NCBI RefSeq assembly: GCF_039596395.1
Contig: NZ_JBCNJT010000004.1
Span: 310,001-374,000, forward strand
DNA: 64,000 bases
Origin: Fluviicola sp.
GTDB lineage: Bacteria > Bacteroidota > Bacteroidia > Flavobacteriales_D > Crocinitomicaceae
Direction: 5' to 3'
Shown: in pieces, positions 8,753-52,565 of the stretch
How the letters are laid out: the number at the start of each line of letters is the position of its first letter
How positions within the stretch are numbered: the stretch's first letter is position 1
The notes under the pieces: generated by a model
The model's database searches: none
What the model saw: only the letters and a program-made list of their open reading frames with translations
What the model was told of the DNA's origin: nothing
Position numbers and translations under genes: made by a program

Positions 8753-9324
8753 ATTACAAAGCGTTTTTCATACCTGTTTTCCATCAATTCCAACCGGTCT
8801 CTCAGCAGTTTTCGTGCCGTAGATAAATGCCACTTGGAAGTTCCCTCCGAAATCTCGAGCAAGTCGCCGATTTCTTTGTGGTTATACCCGTCAATTACGT
8901 AGAGCGTAAAAACGTGTGCTGAAATGGGCGGGATTGTCTTGAGTAAATCCAGGATTTCCTGGTAGTTCAATTCAAGAGCTCCTGAATTCTCAACCCTTTC
9001 CGCCGAATTCGCCAACTCGGCTTCCGTTTCTTTCGCTAAGATTAGCTGATTGTGATTCTTATTTTTCCGGTATTCATCAATCAGTGTATTTACAATAATC
9101 CGTTTGGCCCATGCTGCAAAGTTCAACTCATCCAGGTCTACATTCTGCAAGCCGTTCACTATCTTCAGGAACCCGTTGTTCAATGCATGCCGCGCATCTT
9201 CATGGTTGGAATAATAGCGCATGCAGAGGCGTATAAATTGCCTGTAACAATACTCGTAGAGCACTTTTTGCGAGCGTCTATCATTCTCAGCGGACCCCAA
9301 CAATATCTGTTTGGTTACTTGCAT
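8749..9324 (-). CDS. ECF-type RNA polymerase sigma factor
   Basis: A 191-aa sigma-70 family factor. Region 2 spans about 20-95 (YEYCYRQFIRLCMRYYSNHEDARHALNNGFLKI, then FAAWAKRIIVNTLIDEYRK). Region 4 lies at about 128-180 with a helix-turn-helix (HKEIGDLLEISEGTSKWHLSTARKLLRDRL). It directs polymerase to an alternative regulon. The 4-base overlap with the downstream anti-sigma-like membrane protein indicates co-translation and a sigma/anti-sigma pair. The signal and regulon are unknown. The start at MQVTKQILLG follows a TAnnTTTG-poor region, so no promoter is called. Confidence 0.92.
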   Translation of the reverse strand: MQVTKQILLGSAENDRRSQKVLYEYCYRQFIRLCMRYYSNHEDARHALNNGFLKIVNGLQNVDLDELNFAAWAKRIIVNTLIDEYRKNKNHNQLILAKETEAELANSAERVENSGALELNYQEILDLLKTIPPISAHVFTLYVIDGYNHKEIGDLLEISEGTSKWHLSTARKLLRDRLELMENRYEKRFVI

Positions 9325-9407
9325 GTATTTGGGTTCAAATAGTTGTTCATTAACAAGTCAAAATGTTGAAAGTTGAATCTTGCTTTTTACACATAACGTC
9401 CTATCTT

Positions 9408-9415
9408 TACATTTG
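9408..9415 (+). promoter_or_regulatory. -7 promoter element TACATTTG
   Basis: A match to TAnnTTTG, 18 bases before the ATG of the histidine phosphatase gene at 9434. Confidence 0.45.
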
Positions 9416-9433
9416 GTTGGAAATTAAGTAAAA

Positions 9434-9940
9434 ATGTTGACACTAAACCTGATTCGGCACGCAAAAACCCAGCAAATATCACCAACCGGGAAGGATTACG
9501 ATCGTGAACTTTTAGATAAAGGAATCTCCCAGGCAAACGTCCTGGGCAATTATTTACAGGCTCATCACATCTCTCTCGGGAAGGTTATTTGTTCCAGTGC
9601 TGTCAGAACACAGCAAACACGATCTATTATTTGTCAGCATCTGACCGAACGCTGCAACTACGAGTTCTCGAAGGATTTATACAATGCTTTTTATACGGAA
9701 ATCATCGATGTGATTCAGGCTCTTGGCAAAGGAGAACCCGTTGTAACCATTGTGGCGCACAACGACGGCATTTCACAACTGGCCCGTTACCTTTCGGGGG
9801 AGTTTATCCATTTGCGTACTTCTGAAATGATTTCCCTGGCTATTCCCTTTGAATCGTGGGAGTATTTAAGTGAAGGCACTGCGGGGATTATCTTCCAGTA
9901 TCGTCCTGAGGTCTTTCTCCCTCATCCGGTGATTTCCTGA
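9434..9940 (+). CDS. Histidine phosphatase family protein (SixA-like)
   Basis: A 168-aa protein of the phosphoglycerate-mutase-like superfamily. The catalytic RHAKT motif is at 8-12 (His9 is the phospho-acceptor). It continues with KDYDRELLDKGISQANVLGNYL and the second-Arg segment SSAVRTQQT, and has a later VAHNDGISQLARYLSG carrying the second catalytic His. Size and motifs match the compact SixA group, which removes phosphate from phosphohistidine or small substrates; the substrate here is not determinable. Its 3' end overlaps the convergent rhomboid gene by 53 bases. Confidence 0.9.
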   Translation: MLTLNLIRHAKTQQISPTGKDYDRELLDKGISQANVLGNYLQAHHISLGKVICSSAVRTQQTRSIICQHLTERCNYEFSKDLYNAFYTEIIDVIQALGKGEPVVTIVAHNDGISQLARYLSGEFIHLRTSEMISLAIPFESWEYLSEGTAGIIFQYRPEVFLPHPVIS

Positions 9941-10709
9941 TCGGGTTTACGTGATAAATAACCCGGATCGGTGGCCGCGGCCCGTAAACAGCTTCCTGTT
10001 CGCGCATGAGTTGTTCGATGTATTGCCGGTGTGCGATTTCTTCCTGGTTCCTGCGCCACATTCCTTCCAGGTCGGGAGGTTCGATACCCAGTTCTTTTTC
10101 AATTTCATACTGGAACTTGGCACGCACCGGCCCACGGTTGCGGTAAGCAACTGCTAACAGCACGCCCACCACAAATCCTCCGAAATGGCCTTCCCAGGAA
10201 ATGGACGGTTCGATCGGGAAAATTCCCCAAATCATACTCCCGTACACAAAGATGACCGCGAGTGAAATTCCCTGCAGGGCCAATATTCTTCGAAAGAAAC
10301 CGGAAACAAACAGGAATCCGAAAAGTGCGTAAATCACACCGCTCATCCCAATGTGGTACGAACCGTTGTCTTTTGCGATCCACCAAACAATCAATCCAGT
10401 TCCTATCCAGGAAATTGCAAAAACTTTCCAGGCGATTTCCCGGTAATAATAGATCACCGCAGCCAAAAGCAGGAAAGTAGGAAGCGAATTATTCAAAATG
10501 TGCTTCACATTGTAAGGATCATGTAATAATGGCATGAAAAGCACTCCTTTCCAACTGCTCCATTGCCGCGGACGAATCCCCCATTCCACCAGATTACCCC
10601 CTCCCGGAGTCGTTTCCAGCAGCCAGATTGTCCAGCAAAGAAGAAGCAAAAGCAGCGGGTAAATCAACGCTTCAGCAGCTGAACCTGGTATTTTTGTTTG
10701 TGTTCTCAC
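9888..10709 (-). CDS. Rhomboid family intramembrane serine protease
   Basis: A 273-aa inner-membrane protease. The catalytic dyad is visible: Ser123 in GMSGVIYALFGF and His175 in WEGHFGGFVVG, each in a TM helix. Six or so hydrophobic segments run from residue 16 to about 192. The C-terminal 80 residues are a charged cytoplasmic tail (ELGIEPPDLEGMWRRNQEEIAHRQYIEQL). Rhomboids cleave TM segments of membrane proteins; the substrate is not indicated by the neighbours. The long antiparallel overlap with the SixA-like gene is real for these frames, because both C-termini have coding character. Confidence 0.9.
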   Translation of the reverse strand: MRTQTKIPGSAAEALIYPLLLLLLCWTIWLLETTPGGGNLVEWGIRPRQWSSWKGVLFMPLLHDPYNVKHILNNSLPTFLLLAAVIYYYREIAWKVFAISWIGTGLIVWWIAKDNGSYHIGMSGVIYALFGFLFVSGFFRRILALQGISLAVIFVYGSMIWGIFPIEPSISWEGHFGGFVVGVLLAVAYRNRGPVRAKFQYEIEKELGIEPPDLEGMWRRNQEEIAHRQYIEQLMREQEAVYGPRPPIRVIYHVNPIRKSPDEGERPQDDTGR

Positions 10710-10864: not shown

Positions 10865-12340
10865 ATGAAGAGAAAAAACAGACTATTCCTTCTGGTCCTG
10901 GGCTTATTGCCTGTTATTTCACTGGGACAAGACAATCATTACTGGAACGACCAATTCGGGATTAAAGCTACCGCCCTGGGAGGTGCTGCTGTTGGCGGCC
11001 TGGACGATTATTCCATGGTTTATTACAATGCAGCGGCCATGACACTGGTTGAAAAGAGAGCACTTTCATTTTCCCTGAGTGCTTACCAGATCAGGAAATT
11101 CAAACAACAAAACGCATTGGGGCCCGAACAGGATATTCAAAGTACCGAATTCTCCGTGGTTCCGAATATGATCGCGGGAATCATGGTACCGAAGAAATTC
11201 AAAAAATGGCATGCCGGGTATATGCTCTTGTCGAAAAATGTACACAACAGCAAACTGAACTCCTTTCATTCGGGAAAATACGATGCAATCGACGCTCCGG
11301 GGGAGGAGAAATTTCTTTCCAAATACGCCCAGGAGATCCGGAATATCGAATATTGGGTTGGTTTTGGGATTTCCTATGATATCAACAAGCACTTATCGGT
11401 AGGCTTAACGCACATGGGCGGATTTAAAGGCGTGCGTTATTACAATGATTACTCGGTAACGGTGCTTCCACAAGACACTTCTTCCTCACAGGACACCCGT
11501 TTTTCGTCCAATATCTCTTTCAACTATTGGGATGTAAAAGCCATGTTCAAGCCTTCAGTATTACTTCATTATCCCAAATTCCGGGTAGGTTTTGCAGCCA
11601 CGCTTCCCACTTTCAACATTGTGGGCAGAGGCACTTTCCTTCGCGAATTTTCAACCCTCAACCTGGATGGCGAAGGCTTGCTTCCAGTAGATATTTCTAT
11701 TGCTTCCAAATCAACCAGGAACAAAGTCAAGGTGAAAAACCCGGCTTCCTTCAGTTTAGGAATTGCGGCACAACTAAGCAAAAATATCTGGTTGAATATT
11801 ACCGCGGAAACATTCCTGCAACAAAAATATTACCTGATCCATGATGATCCGACAACCGCAGAGCGCTATCCGGAGTTTATCAGTGATTCGACCATCAAAG
11901 CCTTATTTGGCGGACAAAAATTCCTGGATTATGGTGAAGGTGCAAGGCCGGTTACCAATCTCGGGATCGGGTTTGATATTCAACTGTCCAAAAAGGCTTC
12001 CTTTCAATTTGGCGGTCATACGGATTTCAACTACAACCGGAACCCGGTCTACCTGTTTACACGACAACACATCCAGTCTTCCCAATACAATCGGTTGGTC
12101 TTTGCTATGGGAGGAAATCTGGACTTAAAGGGCGGTAAGAAAGCTGCTCTTGTACTGGAATTCGGGTTTTCGCTGCCCAAAACAACAGATTACGTGATCG
12201 ATTTCACCACACCGAATGCAGGGCGGAATGGGTTAATGGGCGATCCGGGAGGTGGCGTTGAAACACAATCCTATACCTTTCGGTTGATGCTTGAATTGAC
12301 TTTGGGCAAAATTTTAGATGAAATTAAAGTCGAAAAGTGA
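10865..12340 (+). CDS. OmpP1/FadL-like outer-membrane protein, copy 1
   Basis: A 491-aa protein with a signal peptide (MKRKNRLFLLVLGLLPVISLGQ). The mature N-terminus reads GIKATALGGAAVGGLDDYSMVYYNAAAM, the hallmark of FadL/OmpP1 outer-membrane channels (the N-terminal ATALGGA...YNPAAM motif). The rest is a run of amphipathic strands ending in a terminal strand SYTFRLMLELTLGKI. FadL proteins import hydrophobic compounds. It is followed 73 bases later by a close paralogue in the same orientation with the same length and motif order, evidence of tandem duplication. Confidence 0.85.
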   Translation: MKRKNRLFLLVLGLLPVISLGQDNHYWNDQFGIKATALGGAAVGGLDDYSMVYYNAAAMTLVEKRALSFSLSAYQIRKFKQQNALGPEQDIQSTEFSVVPNMIAGIMVPKKFKKWHAGYMLLSKNVHNSKLNSFHSGKYDAIDAPGEEKFLSKYAQEIRNIEYWVGFGISYDINKHLSVGLTHMGGFKGVRYYNDYSVTVLPQDTSSSQDTRFSSNISFNYWDVKAMFKPSVLLHYPKFRVGFAATLPTFNIVGRGTFLREFSTLNLDGEGLLPVDISIASKSTRNKVKVKNPASFSLGIAAQLSKNIWLNITAETFLQQKYYLIHDDPTTAERYPEFISDSTIKALFGGQKFLDYGEGARPVTNLGIGFDIQLSKKASFQFGGHTDFNYNRNPVYLFTRQHIQSSQYNRLVFAMGGNLDLKGGKKAALVLEFGFSLPKTTDYVIDFTTPNAGRNGLMGDPGGGVETQSYTFRLMLELTLGKILDEIKVEK

Positions 12341-46169: not shown

Positions 46170-46204
46170 CATTATGTATGGATGTTTCTATTAGTGACCG
46201 GAAT

Positions 46205-46237
46205 AAAAAAGCTTCATCCAATTCCTGAATGAAGCTT
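46205..46237 (-). terminator. Terminator-like hairpin
   Basis: AAGCTTCAT / ATGAAGCTT, a 9-bp stem, with a T-run only on the minus strand. No clear minus-strand gene lies directly upstream of it; it could end a small RNA or back up the hairpin at 46372-46440. Confidence 0.45.
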
Positions 46238-46371
46238 AGTATATAGAGAGATCAGAATTGACTTCTGATTCGTTGTGCCTTTCTGTTATCTCTAAAATAG
46301 GAAGAAAAAAAAACGGAAAAAGTTAAGGAATTACAAAAATTCAATGCTGGTTATCGGGATGAAAAATAAGA

Positions 46372-46440
46372 AAGCCCGGCATATCGAACAGGCTGCGCCT
46401 ATGCTACGCGCGATGCGTAGACACTCAATGACCGGGCTTT
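46372..46440 (-). terminator. Terminator-like long hairpin after the small zinc-ribbon gene
   Basis: AAGCCCGG and CCGGGCTT bound an interior that also folds (CTACGCGCGATGCGTAG). It lies 22 bases after the stop of the 42-aa protein, with T-rich sequence following on the minus strand. Confidence 0.55.
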
Positions 46441-46461
46441 TATTCATTTCTTTACTACCAA

Positions 46462-46590
46462 TTAATGAACCGGCGGTGGCTGATTGGTCGGACAAGTCGG
46501 ATTGGGGCATTGCGCGTGCCCTTCCTGCAACGGCGTTCCGCACGCCGGACAAAACTTCTGCTCTTTAGCCAGATAAAACTGCTTTTTCAT
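46462..46590 (-). CDS. 42-aa zinc-ribbon small protein
   Basis: The minus-strand ATG at 46588-46590 opens a 42-codon frame with a basic/aromatic start, MKKQFYLAKEQKF. A four-cysteine pattern follows: CPACGTPLQEGHAQC, then two-plus residues to TC (Cys at 14, 17, 28 and 33), and the tail TNQPPPVH. This looks like a rubredoxin/zinc-ribbon knuckle. It is preceded by GAGGGG (possible RBS) and followed by a hairpin. The function is unknown. It lies in a gap otherwise free of genes, between the sugar dehydrogenase gene and tRNA-Gln. Confidence 0.6.
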   Translation of the reverse strand: MKKQFYLAKEQKFCPACGTPLQEGHAQCPNPTCPTNQPPPVH

Positions 46591-46832
46591 ACCCCTCGTT
46601 TTTGATTTCAAGGTTAAGATAAGGGAAAAAGAAGTGGCTAGACGTTAAAGAATTAGAAAAGAGAATAGAAACAAAATGAGAAGACAGACCAACCTTCTAT
46701 TTAACCTGATTATTTTTTATTCGATCAAATTAGAAATTCACCAGGAAATACCAAATTACGTTATAAAATCGGCTTTTCTTAATTTCTTCCCCCCTTAATA
46801 CCTCTTTAAAAGAGAAACGAGAAATGATGTCA

Positions 46833-46906: not shown

Positions 46907-46907
46907 A

Positions 46908-46947
46908 AAAAGAAAAGAGCATCCAATTACTTTGAATGCTCTTTTCT
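46908..46947 (-). terminator. Terminator of the left tRNA-Gln
   Basis: A 12-bp perfect stem AGAAAAGAGCAT / ATGCTCTTTTCT just after the tRNA 3' end on the minus strand. Confidence 0.75.
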
Positions 46948-46952
46948 TTTTG

Positions 46953-47025
46953 TTGACCCACTAGGGCTCGAACCTAGACTCTTCTGAACCAAAATCAGAC
47001 GTGTTGCCAGTTACACCATGGGTCA
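46953..47025 (-). tRNA. tRNA-Gln (anticodon TTG), left copy
   Basis: A 73-nt cloverleaf: acceptor TGACCCA / TGGGTCA, D-arm TGTAACTGGCAACA, anticodon loop CTGATTTTGGTTCAG (TTG), T-arm CTAGGTTCGAGCCCTAG. It is identical to the copy at 52475-52547. Its upstream promoter is weak (TAGATTGG). Confidence 0.97.
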
Positions 47026-47172
47026 GTTTTCCAATCTAACCAACAAAAAGCCACAAAAGAGCCCTTCTCCGACACTTTCATCCTGCGGCAATAGTTCTGT
47101 GTCATTTGGGAAAAAGTGTACCCATAATCGTCCCCAGTTGTCCCTGCGAAAAGACCAACAAAATCAAGTATT

Positions 47173-48399
47173 ATGAAGGTCACTATCAGACAGAAATCAG
47201 GCATGCTGTACTTGTATGCAGACATCACCGTTTCCAAATTGCGCGTAAAAGGCACATTGGGAATCACTATCAAAGAAGGCAGGTTCAACCCGAAGACACA
47301 AACCGTACAGGGTACATCGGACGCACCGGAAACCAACATTCTCATCAACAATTTCAAATCCGAGATATTGGCGAAGGTTCGCACGTTGCAAAAGGACGGA
47401 GCATTAACCAAAGACAATCTCACGGACGCGGTGAAGGAAATACGAACCCGTTTGACCGACCCCGAGTTTTCTAATGAGAACGAGCAGAGACTAACAACCT
47501 ACGTCCGCAAGTACATCGACCGTGTGAAAGAGTTGCGAAAGGAAAGCACCATCAAACAATTCTACTGCTCGCTAAACAAGATTGAGGAGTACGAGCGGTT
47601 GAAGAAGGTAAAGCTGACATTCGACAAGATTGACCATGCATTTTACAACTCCCTGATGACGTACGGAATGAAAGAACTTAATCTCTCTACCAACTCATTA
47701 GGAAACATCGTCAAGAACCTGAAAACTTGGATGAATGCCGCGTACGAAGACAGTTTGCATACCAACATGATCTTCACTAGCAGGTCGTTCAAGAAACCGG
47801 CAGAGGAAGCGGATACCATTTACCTGAACGAATCCGAACTACGAACCATTCGTAACACGATCATGCCAAACAAACACCTGGACAATGTGCGGGACTTATT
47901 TCTACTTGCTTGCTACACGGGGGTACGTTCACAGGATTACTCCAAGCTATCCAAAGAGTATCTTATCAACGATGGTACAATGTTCAAGGTACGGGCGGAA
48001 AAGACAGATCAGGAGGTAATTATCCCGTTGCACCCTGAAGCAAAAAGAGTGCTTGACAAATATGATGGTCAGCCACGGGTAATGTCGAACCAGAAGTTCA
48101 ACGAATACATCAAGGAAGTGTGCAGGATTGCCGGACTGGATGAACCCATAACAACCACCAGAACCATCGGAGGTAAAAAGGTTCGGACGACAAAGGCAAA
48201 ATGCGAATGGGTTTCTTCACATTGCGCCCGCAGAAGTTTCGCTACTAACGCTTACAAGGCAGGAGTTCCGACTTTGGCGATCATGGCGATTACAGGACAC
48301 ACTACGGAGAAGGTATTTTTAAAGTATGTGCGGGTAACGAAGGAGGAACACGCGGGAATGATGAGCGGACACCAGTTCTTTAAGCAAAGTGTCGCCTAA
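47173..48399 (+). CDS. Tyrosine site-specific integrase
   Basis: A 408-aa phage-type recombinase. The N-terminal arm/SAM-like DNA-binding domains span about 1-210 (MKVTIRQKSGMLYLYADITVSKLRVKGTLG, FYCSLNKIEEYERLKKVKLTFDKID). The catalytic domain has ACYTGVRSQDYSKL (Arg), AEKTDQEVIIPL (Lys), SSHCARRSFATNAYKAGVP (His-x-x-Arg), ITGHTTEKVFLKYV (His and nucleophile Tyr). All active-site residues are present. It lies next to the left tRNA-Gln copy and probably drives excision and integration of the island. It overlaps the XRE gene by 4 bases tail to tail. Confidence 0.95.
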   Translation: MKVTIRQKSGMLYLYADITVSKLRVKGTLGITIKEGRFNPKTQTVQGTSDAPETNILINNFKSEILAKVRTLQKDGALTKDNLTDAVKEIRTRLTDPEFSNENEQRLTTYVRKYIDRVKELRKESTIKQFYCSLNKIEEYERLKKVKLTFDKIDHAFYNSLMTYGMKELNLSTNSLGNIVKNLKTWMNAAYEDSLHTNMIFTSRSFKKPAEEADTIYLNESELRTIRNTIMPNKHLDNVRDLFLLACYTGVRSQDYSKLSKEYLINDGTMFKVRAEKTDQEVIIPLHPEAKRVLDKYDGQPRVMSNQKFNEYIKEVCRIAGLDEPITTTRTIGGKKVRTTKAKCEWVSSHCARRSFATNAYKAGVPTLAIMAITGHTTEKVFLKYVRVTKEEHAGMMSGHQFFKQSVA

Positions 48400-48620
48400 C
48401 GAAATCCGTTAAGGTCAACACCAAAGTAGTCAGCCAATTTACAAAGAGTGGTAAATGAAATATCACGCTTTCCCTGTTCTATCCGCGCCACATGAATTCC
48501 GGTGTCGTTGTACACGTCTTCTTGGGTTACTCCCTTCTTGTTTCTCAATTCTTTAAGCCGTTTTGCTATGGTCAGCAATAATTCTCCGTTCTCCATGACC
48601 GAAAAGTCAGGACGATGCAT
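48396..48620 (-). CDS. XRE-family HTH regulator
   Basis: A 74-aa single-domain Cro/CI-type DNA-binding protein: LLTIAKRLKELRNKKGVTQEDVYNDTGIHVARIEQGKRDISFTTLCKLADYFGVDLNGF. The start at 48620 lies inside the palindrome at 48618-48633; Met9 at 48596 is the alternative. It is transcribed away from the lipoprotein gene and convergent with the integrase. It is probably a repressor controlling its own promoter and the cargo promoter. Confidence 0.9.
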   Translation of the reverse strand: MHRPDFSVMENGELLLTIAKRLKELRNKKGVTQEDVYNDTGIHVARIEQGKRDISFTTLCKLADYFGVDLNGFR

Positions 48621-48633
48621 TACTTTTGTAATG
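48618..48633. promoter_or_regulatory. Candidate XRE operator over a -7 element
   Basis: A perfect palindrome CATTAC-TTTT-GTAATG, overlapping the -7 element TACTTTTG (48621-48628) of the rightward cargo promoter and the XRE start codon. Confidence 0.5.
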
Positions 48634-48679
48634 ACCGAACGGTAAGTATTTAATTTTTACAAATCTTAATTCACTAATT

Positions 48680-49159
48680 ATGAAAAGAATACCACTTATG
48701 CTCTTCTGTGTTTCTATCGCAGTTGTATCCTGCAAAAAGGAAAAGTCCGAACCTACAAACCCTCCACCACCTACAACAGTTGATGAGCCAGGAGAATGGG
48801 GTGTTCAAATGATAGGCACATGGTCTCTGGACAGTATTAGATTCTATGGTGACCATTCACCCGAATCATACGTGAATACTACCTATTATCCCAATAGTCA
48901 CATAACTATTGAGTTTAAATCTATAGACACCTACGGAAATAGGAATGTTTACAGGGAAACAGGCGTCATTTCAGGGGAATCAATAGACAGATATTTTTCT
49001 CTGCATGAGTCGCTCGGTTGGTTCAATTATTCAACTGATGTTGGCATTATCACAGAACCAAATACTACTTATAAGGTCGTTGGAATAAGTCCGAATGAAA
49101 TGGTTACGGAGGTTTACGCCCCTAATTTAAACCGTTGGGTTCGTTATTATAGTCGATAA
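48680..49159 (+). CDS. Island lipoprotein (159 aa)
   Basis: The lipobox IAVVSC puts the lipidated Cys near 18, followed by a KKEKSEPTNPPPPTT spacer. The mature domain resembles lipocalin-like surface lipoproteins (GTWSLDSIRFYGDHSPESYV, HITIEFKSIDTYGNRNVYRETG, YKVVGISPNEMVTEVY). The function is unknown. It is the first gene of the rightward cargo, behind the XRE operator candidate. Confidence 0.75.
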   Translation: MKRIPLMLFCVSIAVVSCKKEKSEPTNPPPPTTVDEPGEWGVQMIGTWSLDSIRFYGDHSPESYVNTTYYPNSHITIEFKSIDTYGNRNVYRETGVISGESIDRYFSLHESLGWFNYSTDVGIITEPNTTYKVVGISPNEMVTEVYAPNLNRWVRYYSR

Positions 49160-49162
49160 GCC

Positions 49163-49336
49163 ATGATATTTCTTTGCGGAATACTCGGTTACTTTGGTGG
49201 TGAGTTTATCATTGGTGGGATTTTGTACGCGGTGTTCGGGAAAGGTGATGCCAATTCGCCACAAAACAAACTGTACGGATGGATGGGGAAAATTGCGGGT
49301 GTCATACTCGCAGTTTACCTGTTCAAAAACCTCTGA
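49163..49336 (+). CDS. 57-aa two-TM small protein of the island
   Basis: The ATG at 49163, 3 bases after the lipoprotein stop, opens a 57-codon frame. Helix 1 is MIFLCGILGYFGGEFIIGGI and helix 2 is WMGKIAGVILAVYLF, joined by a polar loop with FGKGDANSPQNKLYG. It probably forms an operon with the lipoprotein. It is too small for family assignment; a toxin-like or holin-like role is only speculation. Confidence 0.6.
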   Translation: MIFLCGILGYFGGEFIIGGILYAVFGKGDANSPQNKLYGWMGKIAGVILAVYLFKNL

Positions 49337-49377
49337 AAACGTTTGAAAATCCCAAAACCACTCTATAAAATTGTGGT

Positions 49378-49659
49378 ATGGAGAGAGATCGAATTATAGC
49401 TTTGATAGCGGAGGACATAAAGCACAATCAATTATTGAGCGGGTTGAACAGTATCGGGTTAACGGAAAACGACAGGTACACCCTTTCACTGGACTTAGTA
49501 ATCGCCGAAATGATGGGCTACAAACACGGAATGATACCGGACAACTGGCTGGACGTTTACCACGATTCCATGCTTACCTATCCGATCAACCTGACAGCAA
49601 AGGAGATTCGCAATCGTGCGGTAGTTCTGTACAATGAGTTGTTGGAAGTCCGCCCCTAA
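49378..49659 (+). CDS. Hypothetical island protein (93 aa)
   Basis: A soluble acidic helical protein: MERDRIIALIAEDIKHNQLLSGLNSIGLTENDRYTLSLDLVIAEMMGYKHGMIPDNWLDVYHDSM. It has no catalytic motif. It starts 41 bases after the 57-aa gene, so it is probably part of the same cargo transcript. The stretch 49660-49923 after it holds no ORF I trust. Confidence 0.6.
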   Translation: MERDRIIALIAEDIKHNQLLSGLNSIGLTENDRYTLSLDLVIAEMMGYKHGMIPDNWLDVYHDSMLTYPINLTAKEIRNRAVVLYNELLEVRP

Positions 49660-49923
49660 GATTCAGCACACAGAGTTTGTACCACCCGAAATCTTGCCCT
49701 TTTGTAGCGTTTTGCCAATGGGTCGAAACTGCAATCCTTTAAATTCAATAATAAGTAAGACCCTTCGCCTTGAAGAAAATACCCAATGGCCCTTGGTCAA
49801 TCCAAATACTGTGTTTTTCTTTGTAAGATAGCAACGGCTATAAAACACAAAAGGCAAAGTGAGTTCTGTCACAATGCCCTTAGATTTCGACTAAAATGAA
49901 AAAATTAATCATTCATCGCACAG

Positions 49924-50985
49924 ATGGAGCAAATTATTTTTTCATTTATGAAAAATCGCAAAAACGAGGAAAACCCTCAAGTAATTAAGGCGAATGCGTC
50001 TGACATCAAGAAGCGAATCAACGCAAACTGTACCAAAACCCCACTGAAACTCGACTTTAAGCGCACAGGAGTAAGTCCAACAACCAACACAAGATCTGTC
50101 GAGTTGGACTACTACAACAGACCAATATCCTCAACTACATGGTCCTACAACCAGCAAAAAAGTGAATTTACTTATCAAGTAATTCACACAAAGTCCTACT
50201 ACATAGTTGAGGGGAAAAGACTTGGAATTACTGACGCAGAAATCTTTAAAACATTCACTAAACTGGTCTACTCACTTCAGGAAATCAACGAATTCACACA
50301 TCGCACAGAGTTTGACAAGTACCTATTCGATTGTTATCTGGAAGTGTTGGAGGAAGAAGAAGCTGAACGTATCAGCTATCACAATGCATCACTATTGGAC
50401 AAGGTGAAGATGAGCAACTCAACGCCGAGGCTTATTTTGCAATCACTAGAAGAAGTAGCTAAAAGGATAAAAACCAAGGATTCAGAACTTCGAGAACTAG
50501 ATAGGGAGTTGAAGAACAGACAAATCACTGGAGCCAATTTTGATCTGTTGCGTGACCCTATAGATTCCTCACTCAATGGATTGCGCAAGGAGCAGGCCAA
50601 TTTACTTGCAAAATACAAACGAATGGTTGAAACCACTAAGTACCGCAGACGTCACTTTCTGAAAATGGCTTTCAAGACTACAAAACGATCATTGGGTCAT
50701 ACTTCTTACAAACCAGTAGAATGTGGAACAATCTCACTATGTAAGTTTTACATTGAGGAATACTGTAGCTGGTTCAATCGAACTTTCAAAGCTGAAATTG
50801 CCGAGGCCCGTAAATTGGAAAAGTCAGCGAAAAGTAAGCAAAAACGTTTGGCGAACAAGGAGCCTGACCCACGTTTGGAAGTATTAAGACCATTTTTGAA
50901 TAGTGGGTTGTCTAAACAACGTATAGCTGACCAAACAGGAATACCGACGTCAACTGTACGACGGTTGATGGAAAAGCTAGCCTAA
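49924..50985 (+). CDS. Unknown island protein with C-terminal helix-turn-helix
   Basis: A 353-aa basic protein. Its middle has a long helical, heptad-rich region (EEVAKRIKTKDSELRELDRELKNRQITG, LNGLRKEQANLLAKYKRMVE). The final 35 residues form a resolvase-like HTH (LEVLRPFLNSGLSKQRIADQTGIPTSTVRRLMEKL). It has no signal peptide. The codon use is more AT-rich than the core genes. A perfect inverted repeat begins 9 bases after the stop. It could be a replication initiator, excision or regulatory factor of the island; the sequence does not decide. Confidence 0.6.
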   Translation: MEQIIFSFMKNRKNEENPQVIKANASDIKKRINANCTKTPLKLDFKRTGVSPTTNTRSVELDYYNRPISSTTWSYNQQKSEFTYQVIHTKSYYIVEGKRLGITDAEIFKTFTKLVYSLQEINEFTHRTEFDKYLFDCYLEVLEEEEAERISYHNASLLDKVKMSNSTPRLILQSLEEVAKRIKTKDSELRELDRELKNRQITGANFDLLRDPIDSSLNGLRKEQANLLAKYKRMVETTKYRRRHFLKMAFKTTKRSLGHTSYKPVECGTISLCKFYIEEYCSWFNRTFKAEIAEARKLEKSAKSKQKRLANKEPDPRLEVLRPFLNSGLSKQRIADQTGIPTSTVRRLMEKLA

Positions 50986-51425
50986 ATCTACTGAGAAGTT
51001 GAACCAAAAAATGCTCTGATTTTCTACCTGTACCATATTATATAGGTGAAATTTTAGTTCAAATTTTGGTTCAACTTCTAATTCTCCCAACCTCCGTCCG
51101 TTCCTATAATCTTCCACCATTCTGAATTTGTTAGGGAACTACGACTACGGTTGGGAGAAAACATTCAAAGAGACATACTCTGCACAAATCACGACCCAGC
51201 CATCAGAGTGATATCCCCCCACCCCAAAAGCACGAGAGATTGACACTTTTGCTACTGTTTGAACTTTCCATTCTACCCCTCCCCATTTTTAAACTCAGGC
51301 TTGACACCCGCACTGATGGGCTAATCTGCAAACCGCCCCGGCTTCGGATTTTGGCGGGATTGGTTCCTGTTGTCATTTCGTGGAGAAGTGATCCACCCCC
51401 AGTTTACACTCAAAAAACACATATC
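50986..51425. other. Gap in the island without a convincing gene
   Basis: It contains the inverted repeat at 50994-51079 and a GC-rich hairpin-like stretch near 51330-51355. An in-frame extension of the 63-aa gene from 51240 is open, but its N-terminus has no coding character. Confidence 0.5.
50994..51079. repeat. Perfect 16-bp inverted repeat with 54-bp spacer
   Basis: AGAAGTTGAACCAAAA (50994-51009) and TTTTGGTTCAACTTCT (51064-51079). The right arm is preceded by a further GTTCAAA, so GTTCAA also occurs as a short direct repeat. It may be a terminator-like structure, a protein-binding site, or part of an origin or recombination site. Confidence 0.75.
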
Positions 51426-51617
51426 ATGAAAACACAATTAGTTTATGCAGAGGTGATGGATGGCATTACCGCAACGATGTTAGAAGACTCTCTCGTACAG
51501 ATTATTTCAGACAACGGCGTTTTCCTTGTCACTACCGAAGAGAACAGTAAACAGTACCCGCTGGATTTCTACCCTGTGAGTGTGGAGGCGATGGAAGCGT
51601 ATAACTTAAATCTCTAA
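51426..51617 (+). CDS. Hypothetical island protein (63 aa)
   Basis: The ATG at 51426 starts MKTQLVYAEVMDGITATMLEDSLVQIISDNGVFLVTTEEN and the protein ends in AMEAYNLNL. It is acidic and soluble, with an alpha/beta look. The longer frame from 51240 is rejected because its extra part has random composition. It precedes the HNH gene by 24 bases. Confidence 0.5.
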   Translation: MKTQLVYAEVMDGITATMLEDSLVQIISDNGVFLVTTEENSKQYPLDFYPVSVEAMEAYNLNL

Positions 51618-51641
51618 CTTTAGAATAAGTTGATACACAAA

Positions 51642-52367
51642 ATGGCAAAGAAAATACAAGGAAAATGCAGTATTTGTGGTACGTATGGAGTTCTAACGTA
51701 TGAACACATACCTCCAAAGTCTGCATTCAATTCAAAACCTAAGCTGGTTCAAGGACATGAGGAAGTATTTGTTAGTACGAGCCATAAGTATGGCAAGAAT
51801 AGAAGAGCAAATCAAGGGTTCGGTAGACATTGTCTATGTGCAAGTTGCAACAACAATACTGGCAATTGGTACGCTAAAGATTATGCAGAGTTTGCTGAAC
51901 AATGCATGAATAACTTCAGAGAATTGAAAGACTTATATCGAGTAAATGAGTTAAAGTTCCAGATAAAGCCGTTGAATGTTATGAAACAAATCGTTGCCAT
52001 GTTTATGTGCGCGAATGGTAACGTACTCACAGATGATCTAGGCTTACGAAAATTTGTACTGGATAGGGAATGTAAAGATTTGCCCGAACAATATCGAGTT
52101 CATATTTTCACCACCATATCTAAGAACTGCCGTTACAATGGGCTTAGTACAATTTTACAAGCAAATGGAAGTATTATTAACATGTCAGAGATTGTTCATC
52201 GGCCGTTCGGATTTCAACTTACCGTAAACTCAAACCCGACAGAAAGAATGGCAGATATTACTGAATTCACAAAAGCTGATTACGACACTATTTACACGAT
52301 GACACTTACAACCGCAATGCTTGACGTTATAGGTGCATTACCGGGAAATGGAATGTCTGAAAGTTAA
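51642..52367 (+). CDS. HNH-endonuclease-like protein
   Basis: 241 aa from the ATG at 51642 (a TTG at 51630 is possible). The N-terminal 80 residues hold a zinc-HNH pattern: KCSICGTYGVLTYEHIPPKSAFN (CxxC, then Glu-His-Ile like the DHIxPKS core), then FGRHCLCASCNNNTGNWYAKDY (CxxCN and the third HNH position). The C-terminal 150 residues are an unrecognised domain (KFQIKPLNVMKQIVAMFMCANG, EQYRVHIFTTISKN, VHRPFGFQLTVN). It is probably the effector cargo of the island, possibly a defence nuclease. It is followed by the right tRNA-Gln. Confidence 0.7.
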   Translation: MAKKIQGKCSICGTYGVLTYEHIPPKSAFNSKPKLVQGHEEVFVSTSHKYGKNRRANQGFGRHCLCASCNNNTGNWYAKDYAEFAEQCMNNFRELKDLYRVNELKFQIKPLNVMKQIVAMFMCANGNVLTDDLGLRKFVLDRECKDLPEQYRVHIFTTISKNCRYNGLSTILQANGSIINMSEIVHRPFGFQLTVNSNPTERMADITEFTKADYDTIYTMTLTTAMLDVIGALPGNGMSES

Positions 52368-52442
52368 CCAAACTGTACCAACCAGCGGACCTAGTCAAAA
52401 TCACCGTGAATGAACCTTCGCATGACTTCTGAGTAATAAAAG

Positions 52443-52469
52443 AAAAAGGAGCTCATCTCTGAACTCCTT
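52443..52469 (-). terminator. Terminator downstream of the right tRNA-Gln
   Basis: A GGAGTTCA / TGAGCTCC hairpin followed by TTTTT on the minus strand. Confidence 0.7.
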
Positions 52470-52474
52470 CCCTG

Positions 52475-52547
52475 TTGACCCACTAGGGCTCGAACCTAGA
52501 CTCTTCTGAACCAAAATCAGACGTGTTGCCAGTTACACCATGGGTCA
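52475..52547 (-). tRNA. tRNA-Gln (anticodon TTG), right copy
   Basis: Identical over its full 73 nt to the copy at 46953-47025. It has a consensus -7 element (TAACTTTG) 10 bases upstream, so it is probably the native gene. Confidence 0.97.
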
Positions 52548-52557
52548 ATTGCGGTGG

Positions 52558-52565
52558 CAAAGTTA
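52558..52565 (-). promoter_or_regulatory. -7 element TAACTTTG of the right tRNA-Gln
   Basis: An exact TAnnTTTG match on the minus strand, 10 bases upstream of the mature tRNA 5' end. Confidence 0.6.

Follow-up and report, generated by a model that had tools for sequence, protein, structure and literature searches.

A tRNA-Gln island of Fluviicola sp. bounded by two complete tRNA genes, and the tyrosine-integrase branch to which it belongs

The stretch of DNA considered in this work (the window) consists of 64,000 nucleotides (nt) from Fluviicola sp., family Crocinitomicaceae (NCBI RefSeq assembly GCF_039596395.1, contig NZ_JBCNJT010000004.1, positions 310,001 to 374,000 of the forward strand), and it harbours a compact genomic island, located between two complete and identical tRNA-Gln genes and carrying a tyrosine integrase. 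We have compared this island with the corresponding sites in related genomes and with the islands of related integrases (genomes and loci are cited by handles beginning with G and L, respectively). The sequence comparisons extend the preliminary description of the locus, in that the whole-tRNA design is found to belong to a branch of integrases and not to one island.

The island and its chromosomal site

The island ends in a perfect 75-bp repeat, 46951-47025 on the left and 52473-52547 on the right (78 bp if one mismatch is allowed in the repeat search). In both segments ARAGORN identifies a minus-strand tRNA-Gln(TTG) (46952-47025 and 52474-52547), and each copy scores 62.5 bits with the Rfam model RF00005. 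These results confirm what the preliminary description had reported, viz. two identical 75-bp segments, each with a full-length tRNA-Gln(TTG), around an integrase and its cargo, and chance is ruled out as the source of a perfect 75-bp repeat that spans a whole gene. The left copy (46951-47025, minus strand) represents the integrase-side attachment (att) site, with element DNA upstream of the tRNA and chromosomal DNA downstream of it, while the right copy (52473-52547, minus strand) adjoins the native promoter. On the chromosomal side the left copy is followed by a terminator-like inverted repeat (46907-46951, minus strand; repeat search and alignment with congeners), and the right copy is followed by a terminator-like hairpin (52437-52472, minus strand), the sequence of which is unlike the flank of the left copy and is taken as element-derived. 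In a BLAST search of the same genome, for which the left copy with its flanking DNA served as query and which a diverged tRNA-Gln could escape, these two copies were accompanied by five partial matches, each of about 39-45 bases, and by no further full tRNA.

The insertion between the copies is 5.5 kb in length and it encodes a tyrosine integrase, a helix-turn-helix (HTH) regulator and several open reading frames (ORFs) that are small or mostly without a known family. The integrase (408 amino acids (aa); 47173-48399, plus strand) begins 147 bp from the left tRNA and matches PF00589 Phage_integrase (7e-11, above the cut-off), PF13102 Phage_int_SAM_5 (1e-10) and phrog_1 (4e-30); R, HxxR, H and Y residues spotted by eye in its translation are presumably those of the integrase motif. 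Direct repeats that overlap a tRNA gene at both ends, with a tyrosine recombinase beside one of them, are features of tRNA-targeted tyrosine-integrase islands. Tyrosine integrases usually duplicate only the 3' part of the tRNA. The second copy, which in an Islander-type island is a tRNA fragment, is complete in the window, and hence this island represents a variant rather than a standard tRNA-targeted island.

When the right copy and its flanking DNA were used as a query against the genus, all 14 genomes, the window's included, gave matches, and the regions were read in all 13 congeners. In 12 of these a single tRNA-Gln is present beside the same DUF2723 gene, which is the empty site that the preliminary description had proposed to look for, and tandem complete tRNA-Gln genes without an island, which it had named as contrary evidence, are seen in none of the 12. 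The 13th congener (G013) contains an island at the same site, with an integrase that is 68% identical and again with two full tRNA-Gln genes. The promoter type, the DUF2723 gene and the named relatives suggest a host in the Bacteroidota. To the right of the island, 52472-52735 matches the G005 site at an identity of 97%; to its left, 46202-46651 is 73-74% identical to G012, G005 and G002, and the segment 46896-47028, tRNA included, is 85% identical to G002. Because both outer flanks match congeners, the island is confined to the sequence that the two copies enclose. Three of the island-free congeners retain short tRNA-Gln fragments beside the intact gene, viz. nt 57-74 in G005 (L033, 6326-6343), nt 26-59 in G010 (L043) and two fragments, about nt 29-59 and 32-59, in G003 (L044). 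Behind each fragment lies a terminator-like hairpin of its own, and close species have different terminators behind the tRNA; we read these fragments and terminators as vestiges of insertions that took place repeatedly in the past.

Related integrases at complete tRNA genes

Searches with the integrase of the family, order, class and phylum (240, 399, 395, and 395 genomes, respectively) and of three smaller families have identified twelve near-full-length integrases, the window's included, at an identity of at least 45%. The integrase of G257 contains a stop and was excluded from the tree; the eleven stop-free integrases form one branch (support 100/99). Both ends of the island are readable in nine of its members, and complete tRNA genes are present at both ends in all nine (tRNA-Gln in the window, G013 and G034; tRNA-Arg TCG in G139 and ACG in G054 and G064; tRNA-Lys in G002 and G006; tRNA-Leu TAA in G730). 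In G042 and G476, both at tRNA-Gln, only the integrase side is readable and it contains a full tRNA. The eleven members are thus distributed over tRNA-Gln (five) and other tRNAs (six), and the integrase side holds a whole tRNA in every case. The earlier suggestion of a complete tRNA carried by the island is well supported by this distribution together with the single-tRNA sites of the congeners, and the homologues of the integrase do not always occupy another site, since 5 of the 11, the window's included, are found at tRNA-Gln. G034, a genome of another genus, has its island at this DUF2723 locus as well. The decayed element of G257, the integrase of which is 49% identical and has one stop, has a tRNA-Arg at its far side.

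The tree also includes 21 more distant integrases. A tRNA lies in the stretch that was read for 8 of these, and all 8 keep only 13-18 nt of its 3' end on the integrase side, with an additional 22-bp direct repeat there in G062; the stretches read for the other 13 contain no tRNA and they are outside this count. The three groups on the tree require 3 changes, as compared with 8.0 when the labels are shuffled. At an E value of 1e-75, no new member of the branch was found in the families of G476, G730, and G257 (10, 46, and 114 genomes) or in the phylum (395 genomes drawn), and more members could exist because in the wide searches the number of candidates scored in each genome was only 4-7. In the family search, regions were read for 18 of the 30 places listed, in addition to the window and G013. 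The matches G522, G686 (45% identity, residues 145-397 only) and a second place in G795 from the class search were left out, and the loci L031, L032, and L188-L194 lie outside the analysis. Free phage or plasmid relatives were sought and rejected: 42 plasmid and 66 phage records matched, all of them below 60%, with about 22-36% in the 20 listed of each. Scans of viral contigs, which detect close relatives only, found no relatives there, and the same scans found three loci at 24-36% in genome contigs.

The extent of the exact repeat was determined for the nine two-ended islands. Beyond the 5' end of the tRNA the identity continues for 0 nt in the window, 2 in G013, 29 in G034, -2 in G139, 3 in G054, 2 in G002, 0 in G006, 1 in G064, and 6 in G730, and beyond its 3' end, in the same order, for 1, 49, 35, 1, 0, 0, 0, 0, and 4 nt. 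Hence, in 7 of the 9 islands the repeat consists of the tRNA gene and at most 6 bases past either end; that of G034 measures 138 bp and includes a promoter box and a terminator. The left and right copies show no mismatch in 7 of the 9, those of G139 differ at nt 1-2 only, and those of G006 are identical outside an assembly gap of N. The copies agree within genomes while alleles vary between hosts, as between the window and G013 in the acceptor and anticodon stems. The islands of G002 and G006 share the same target and have sister integrases, the DNA of which is 77% identical, and their integrase-side flanks are 65% identical over the aligned bases. The unchanged tRNA (outside the G006 gap) within such diverged surroundings argues, in this one pair of sequences, for upkeep and not for chance.

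Two irregular ends have also been observed. In G476 (L109, reverse complement 10620-10692 and 11992-12063), two tRNA-Gln copies are present 1.4 kb apart on the left side, and the outer one, which looks decayed, shares only 94% identity with the inner one, so that tRNA copies evidently can decay. In G064 (L082, reverse complement 9235-9500), two tandem units recognised by eye separate a promoter-like box from the right tRNA; each of the units starts with nt 1-14/16 of the tRNA-Arg and continues with a hairpin-forming sequence that shows paired changes.

Sites without an island are likewise found for the other targets. The tRNA-Leu site of G730 was located in 3 of 5 congeners, each with one tRNA-Leu and one of them with a 99% identical flank; two of these three carry other inserts of about 1.2 and 8 kb (L185 in G805 and L186 in G588) with one tRNA-Leu only. 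For the tRNA-Lys site, the listing of matches shows in each of 12 genomes of the genus besides G002 and G006 one match of at least 80% that covers the whole tRNA, other full-length matches being lower, as for other tRNAs. For the tRNA-Arg site of G139, one congener (G125) has a flank that matches most of the query, and a single match is listed there.

The islands of the branch span 5.6-11.4 kb and they share a small set of genes. Clustering of ORFs (only those of at least 55 aa starting at ATG) places the integrase in all nine islands, the HTH regulator in 8, and ORFs of 93 and 63 aa in 7 each. In the window, the integrase is followed by the core gene for an Xre/Cro-type HTH regulator (74 aa; 48396-48620, minus strand; HTH_3 2.5e-11), a lipoprotein-like cargo ORF with no family above the cut-off (159 aa; 48680-49159, plus strand), and the small conserved core ORF of 93 aa, for which no family was matched (49378-49659, plus strand). 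A 353 aa protein with a C-terminal HTH (49924-50985, plus strand; weak HTH matches) has relatives in G064 and G257, and it occupies the slot of the DUF3987 or VapE-like ATPases of related islands. One cluster, present in 4 of the 9 islands, includes a DUF3987 protein and another, in 2 of the 9, a VapE-like ATPase (one member of each was scanned); neither was found among the scanned ORFs of the window's island. The core ORF of 63 aa near the far end (51426-51617, plus strand), which has no known family, is by its place and size a candidate directionality factor. Cargo is found in the islands at two positions, one separating the integrase gene from that of the regulator and the other at the far end. 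The far-end slot of the window's island contains an HNH/endonuclease-VII-like ORF (241 aa; 51642-52367, plus strand; Endonuclease_7 0.003, below the cut-off; phrog_21495 2.5e-7, of unknown function), whereas the slot behind the integrase contains a type II restriction enzyme and methylase in G006 (L081) and a PD-Lambda-2-like protein in G139 (L077). A PADLOC scan of two window ORFs and of three proteins from relatives (the G006 pair and G139) found no defence family for the HNH ORF, and for the 353 aa ORF only weak HTH-type matches (E 0.001 or worse).

Position of the crossover and origin of the second copy

Putative arm sites for the integrase, viz. GTCCC/GTACC repeats that were picked by eye from the very sequences in which they were counted, are present on both sides of the island. 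On the integrase side of the window's island they consist of GTACCC at 47118, GTCCCC at 47130, and GTCCCT at 47140 (47118-47145, plus strand; by eye, then by script), and on the far side of GTACCA at 52375 and GGACCT at 52387 (52375-52392, plus strand), which are 99 and 87 bp before the 3' end of the tRNA. This spacing recurs in relatives. Among 14 far-side ends, the first motif lies 98-100 bp from the 3' end of the tRNA in 8, including that of the 85-nt tRNA-Leu, and the second lies at 86-88 in 7 of those 8, with a variant, noted by eye, in G064; a shift of the pair by 11-12 bp, or about one helical turn, is seen in 3 further ends (two in G013 and one in G034, with variant motifs). On the integrase side, the first motif is found 54 to 391 bp from the 5' end of the tRNA. 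A second, integrase-less element that neighbours the island in G013 has the flank and the arm sites of the family and only nt 46-74 of the tRNA. The arm spacing, this partial end and the nt 1-2 difference in G139 together suggest that the crossover occurs in the 3' third of the tRNA, as is usual for tRNA integrases, and that the 5' part of the left copy comes from the island. With such a crossover, the 5' two-thirds of the tRNA in the island would be surplus to the restoration of the target.

We therefore regard it as probable, though by no means certain, that the island is a tRNA-targeted integrative element of a Bacteroidota branch of tyrosine integrases, the attP of which carries a whole host tRNA gene and recombines within its 3' third. 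The integrase would recombine attP with the chromosomal tRNA between the T arm and the 3' end. After insertion, the right copy would be composed of the native promoter, the native 5' part and the 3' end and terminator of the island, and the left copy of the 5' part from the island and the native 3' end; both products would be intact tRNAs because the island carries the full gene. The surplus 5' part would remain identical to the allele of the host, most likely by gene conversion between the copies or by re-capture of the host gene. Under a 3' crossover this identity implies one of these two processes or a recent arrival from the same species; the 138-bp repeat of G034 and an ATTGGC shared at the G013 joint fit re-capture, and the sequences at hand do not appear to separate the three. 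In most islands the 5' part has no visible use.

In the known crossover classes of tRNA genes, three of which were reportedly distinguished by Williams in 2002, the identity is expected to end near the crossover; unlike in those classes, it runs on here to the 5' end of the tRNA. The three positions given in a table footnote of PMC4383910 are the anticodon loop, the T loop and the T/acceptor junction; a 3'-third crossover would agree with the T-loop class or with that of the junction.

A crossover at the 5' end of the tRNA, which would oblige the island to supply the whole gene and would represent a further crossover position within tRNA genes, is rather unlikely, but it ranks second and several observations speak for it. 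The 5' boundary of the repeat lies at nt 1 of the tRNA (-2 to +6) in 8 of the 9 islands, and in 7 of the 9 the 3' boundary is no more than 4 nt away from the end of the tRNA. A 5' crossover accounts for the former more simply: the whole gene would be needed, the duplication would be full without surplus sequence, and conversion or capture would be superfluous. The far-side spacing also does not fully exclude it, because a shift of one turn seems to be tolerated and only one target exceeds 75 nt. Further points that weigh against the 3' crossover, or against the pattern on which it is based, are the following. The nt 46-74 fragment in G013 may result from a later deletion; otherwise the family would include elements with a partial copy. 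In G257 no left tRNA copy could be found by BLAST and only one far-side arm motif is present, at 89, while two ends of G476 have no far-side arm motif. Two of the eight tRNA fragments of the distant integrases (G062 and G603) are 13-nt matches with E values of 0.2-0.3, and that of G603 gave no block on recheck, in which the alignment was offset by the encoded CCA. Against a crossover at the 5' end stand the neighbouring element in G013, in which a flank of the family type adjoins no more than nt 46-74 of the tRNA, and the arm spacing on the far side, which is constant from the 3' end even for the longer tRNA-Leu. In addition, the outgroup integrases cut at the 3' end, and the targets share the T loop but little 5' sequence (by eye). 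It is because of the arm spacing and the G013 fragment that we place the 3' crossover first.

The two copies in the window differ in their promoters. The right copy is preceded by TAACTTTG (52558-52565, minus strand, i.e., read from 52565 to 52558), a -7 promoter box that is also found before the same tRNA in 8 of 13 congeners, whereas the left copy, the upstream DNA of which is island DNA, has only TAGATTGG, with one mismatch and five bases from the tRNA; the stronger promoter noted earlier for the right copy is thus borne out. Across the branch, a perfect TAnnTTTG box is located 19-22 nt upstream in 3 of the 11 left copies (G034, G042, and G476). Seven of the other eight, including the window's, have no such box within 60 nt and that of G730 is at -56, while 6 of the 9 right copies have a promoter box within 60 nt. 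Since its left copy lacks a convincing promoter sequence, the view that the island of the window has its own working tRNA appears unsupported, and the left copy as a working tRNA was rejected for the branch in the absence of a general promoter among left copies. It is accordingly very unlikely that the left copies are selected tRNA cargo (an extra glutamine tRNA that acts, for example, against a tRNA-cleaving defence) with att use being secondary; the three perfect boxes are in its favour, but the tRNA type always equals the target gene and is never one constant useful type. Least probable of all is an ancient tandem duplication of the tRNA with an unrelated island inserted later between the copies, which would explain that both are complete and that the G034 repeat takes in promoter and terminator, but is contradicted by the single tRNA-Gln in 12 of 13 congeners, by copies that in 7 of 9 islands share no more than the tRNA and up to 6 bases past either end, and by the finding of this arrangement at Arg, Lys, and Leu genes within one integrase branch. 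Island-free tandem tRNA genes were considered as an ancestral state and were seen in none of the 12 congeners.

A more tentative idea may also be considered, viz. that the tRNA in attP serves as an exchangeable address label. The integrase and arm sites would stay constant while the whole tRNA is swapped (Gln, Arg, Lys, or Leu), so that the carried tRNA and not the protein might set the target, and the full-length identity might allow entry and exit by homologous recombination of the host, always leaving intact tRNAs. We consider this possible but not the likelier state of affairs.

Relation to known elements and significance

Phage satellites and defence-carrying islands can be compared with the present islands by their small size, integrase and Xre regulator. 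In a comparison of genes, the branch resembles them in its size of 5.6-11.4 kb, its integrase and Xre regulator and the defence cargo in two of the relatives. As for a replication gene of the primase/helicase kind, such as phage satellites have, a DUF3987 or VapE-like ATPase is present in relatives, and none was found in the ORFs of the window's island. In SLP1 of Streptomyces, the att region of about 112 bp includes the whole tRNA-Tyr gene. The likeness to SLP1 consists of the whole tRNA gene in attP, and the difference is that SLP1 is an actinobacterial conjugative element; general scans of eight window ORFs found no family of SLP1-type replication or FtsK-like transfer genes. The consulted part of a survey of actinomycete integrative and conjugative elements (AICEs; PMC3218068) makes no mention of a whole tRNA gene under the phrases looked for. 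The RAP44-type 50K island of Riemerella anatipestifer, a member of the Flavobacteriaceae, likewise bears an integrase and adjoins a tRNA, and it differs in its flanking repeats of 19 bp (PMC9745183).

In Islander, an island is defined by a tRNA gene and a displaced fragment of it, and matches inside a full-length tRNA gene are rejected (PMC4383910). The island of the window is similar to the tDNA islands described there, in which a tyrosine integrase lies beside one att and the island is located between a tRNA gene and a tRNA-derived copy, and it is unlike them in that its second copy is a full gene (PMC4383910). Because of this rejection rule, the islands of the present branch are expected to be filtered out by Islander. 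In the literature on Bacteroidota, we recognised no elements with whole-tRNA att sites and no such integrase branch, a weak negative as subscription journals are mostly uncovered.

A branch of mobile islands, some of which carry defence genes, may therefore be under-counted, since programs that seek a tRNA and its fragment discard such elements by rule (PMC4383910), and the second tRNA may be mis-annotated as a host gene. The branch also represents a naturally occurring set of related integrases that differ in their tRNA targets, by means of which the question of how integrases change their address becomes testable in vitro.

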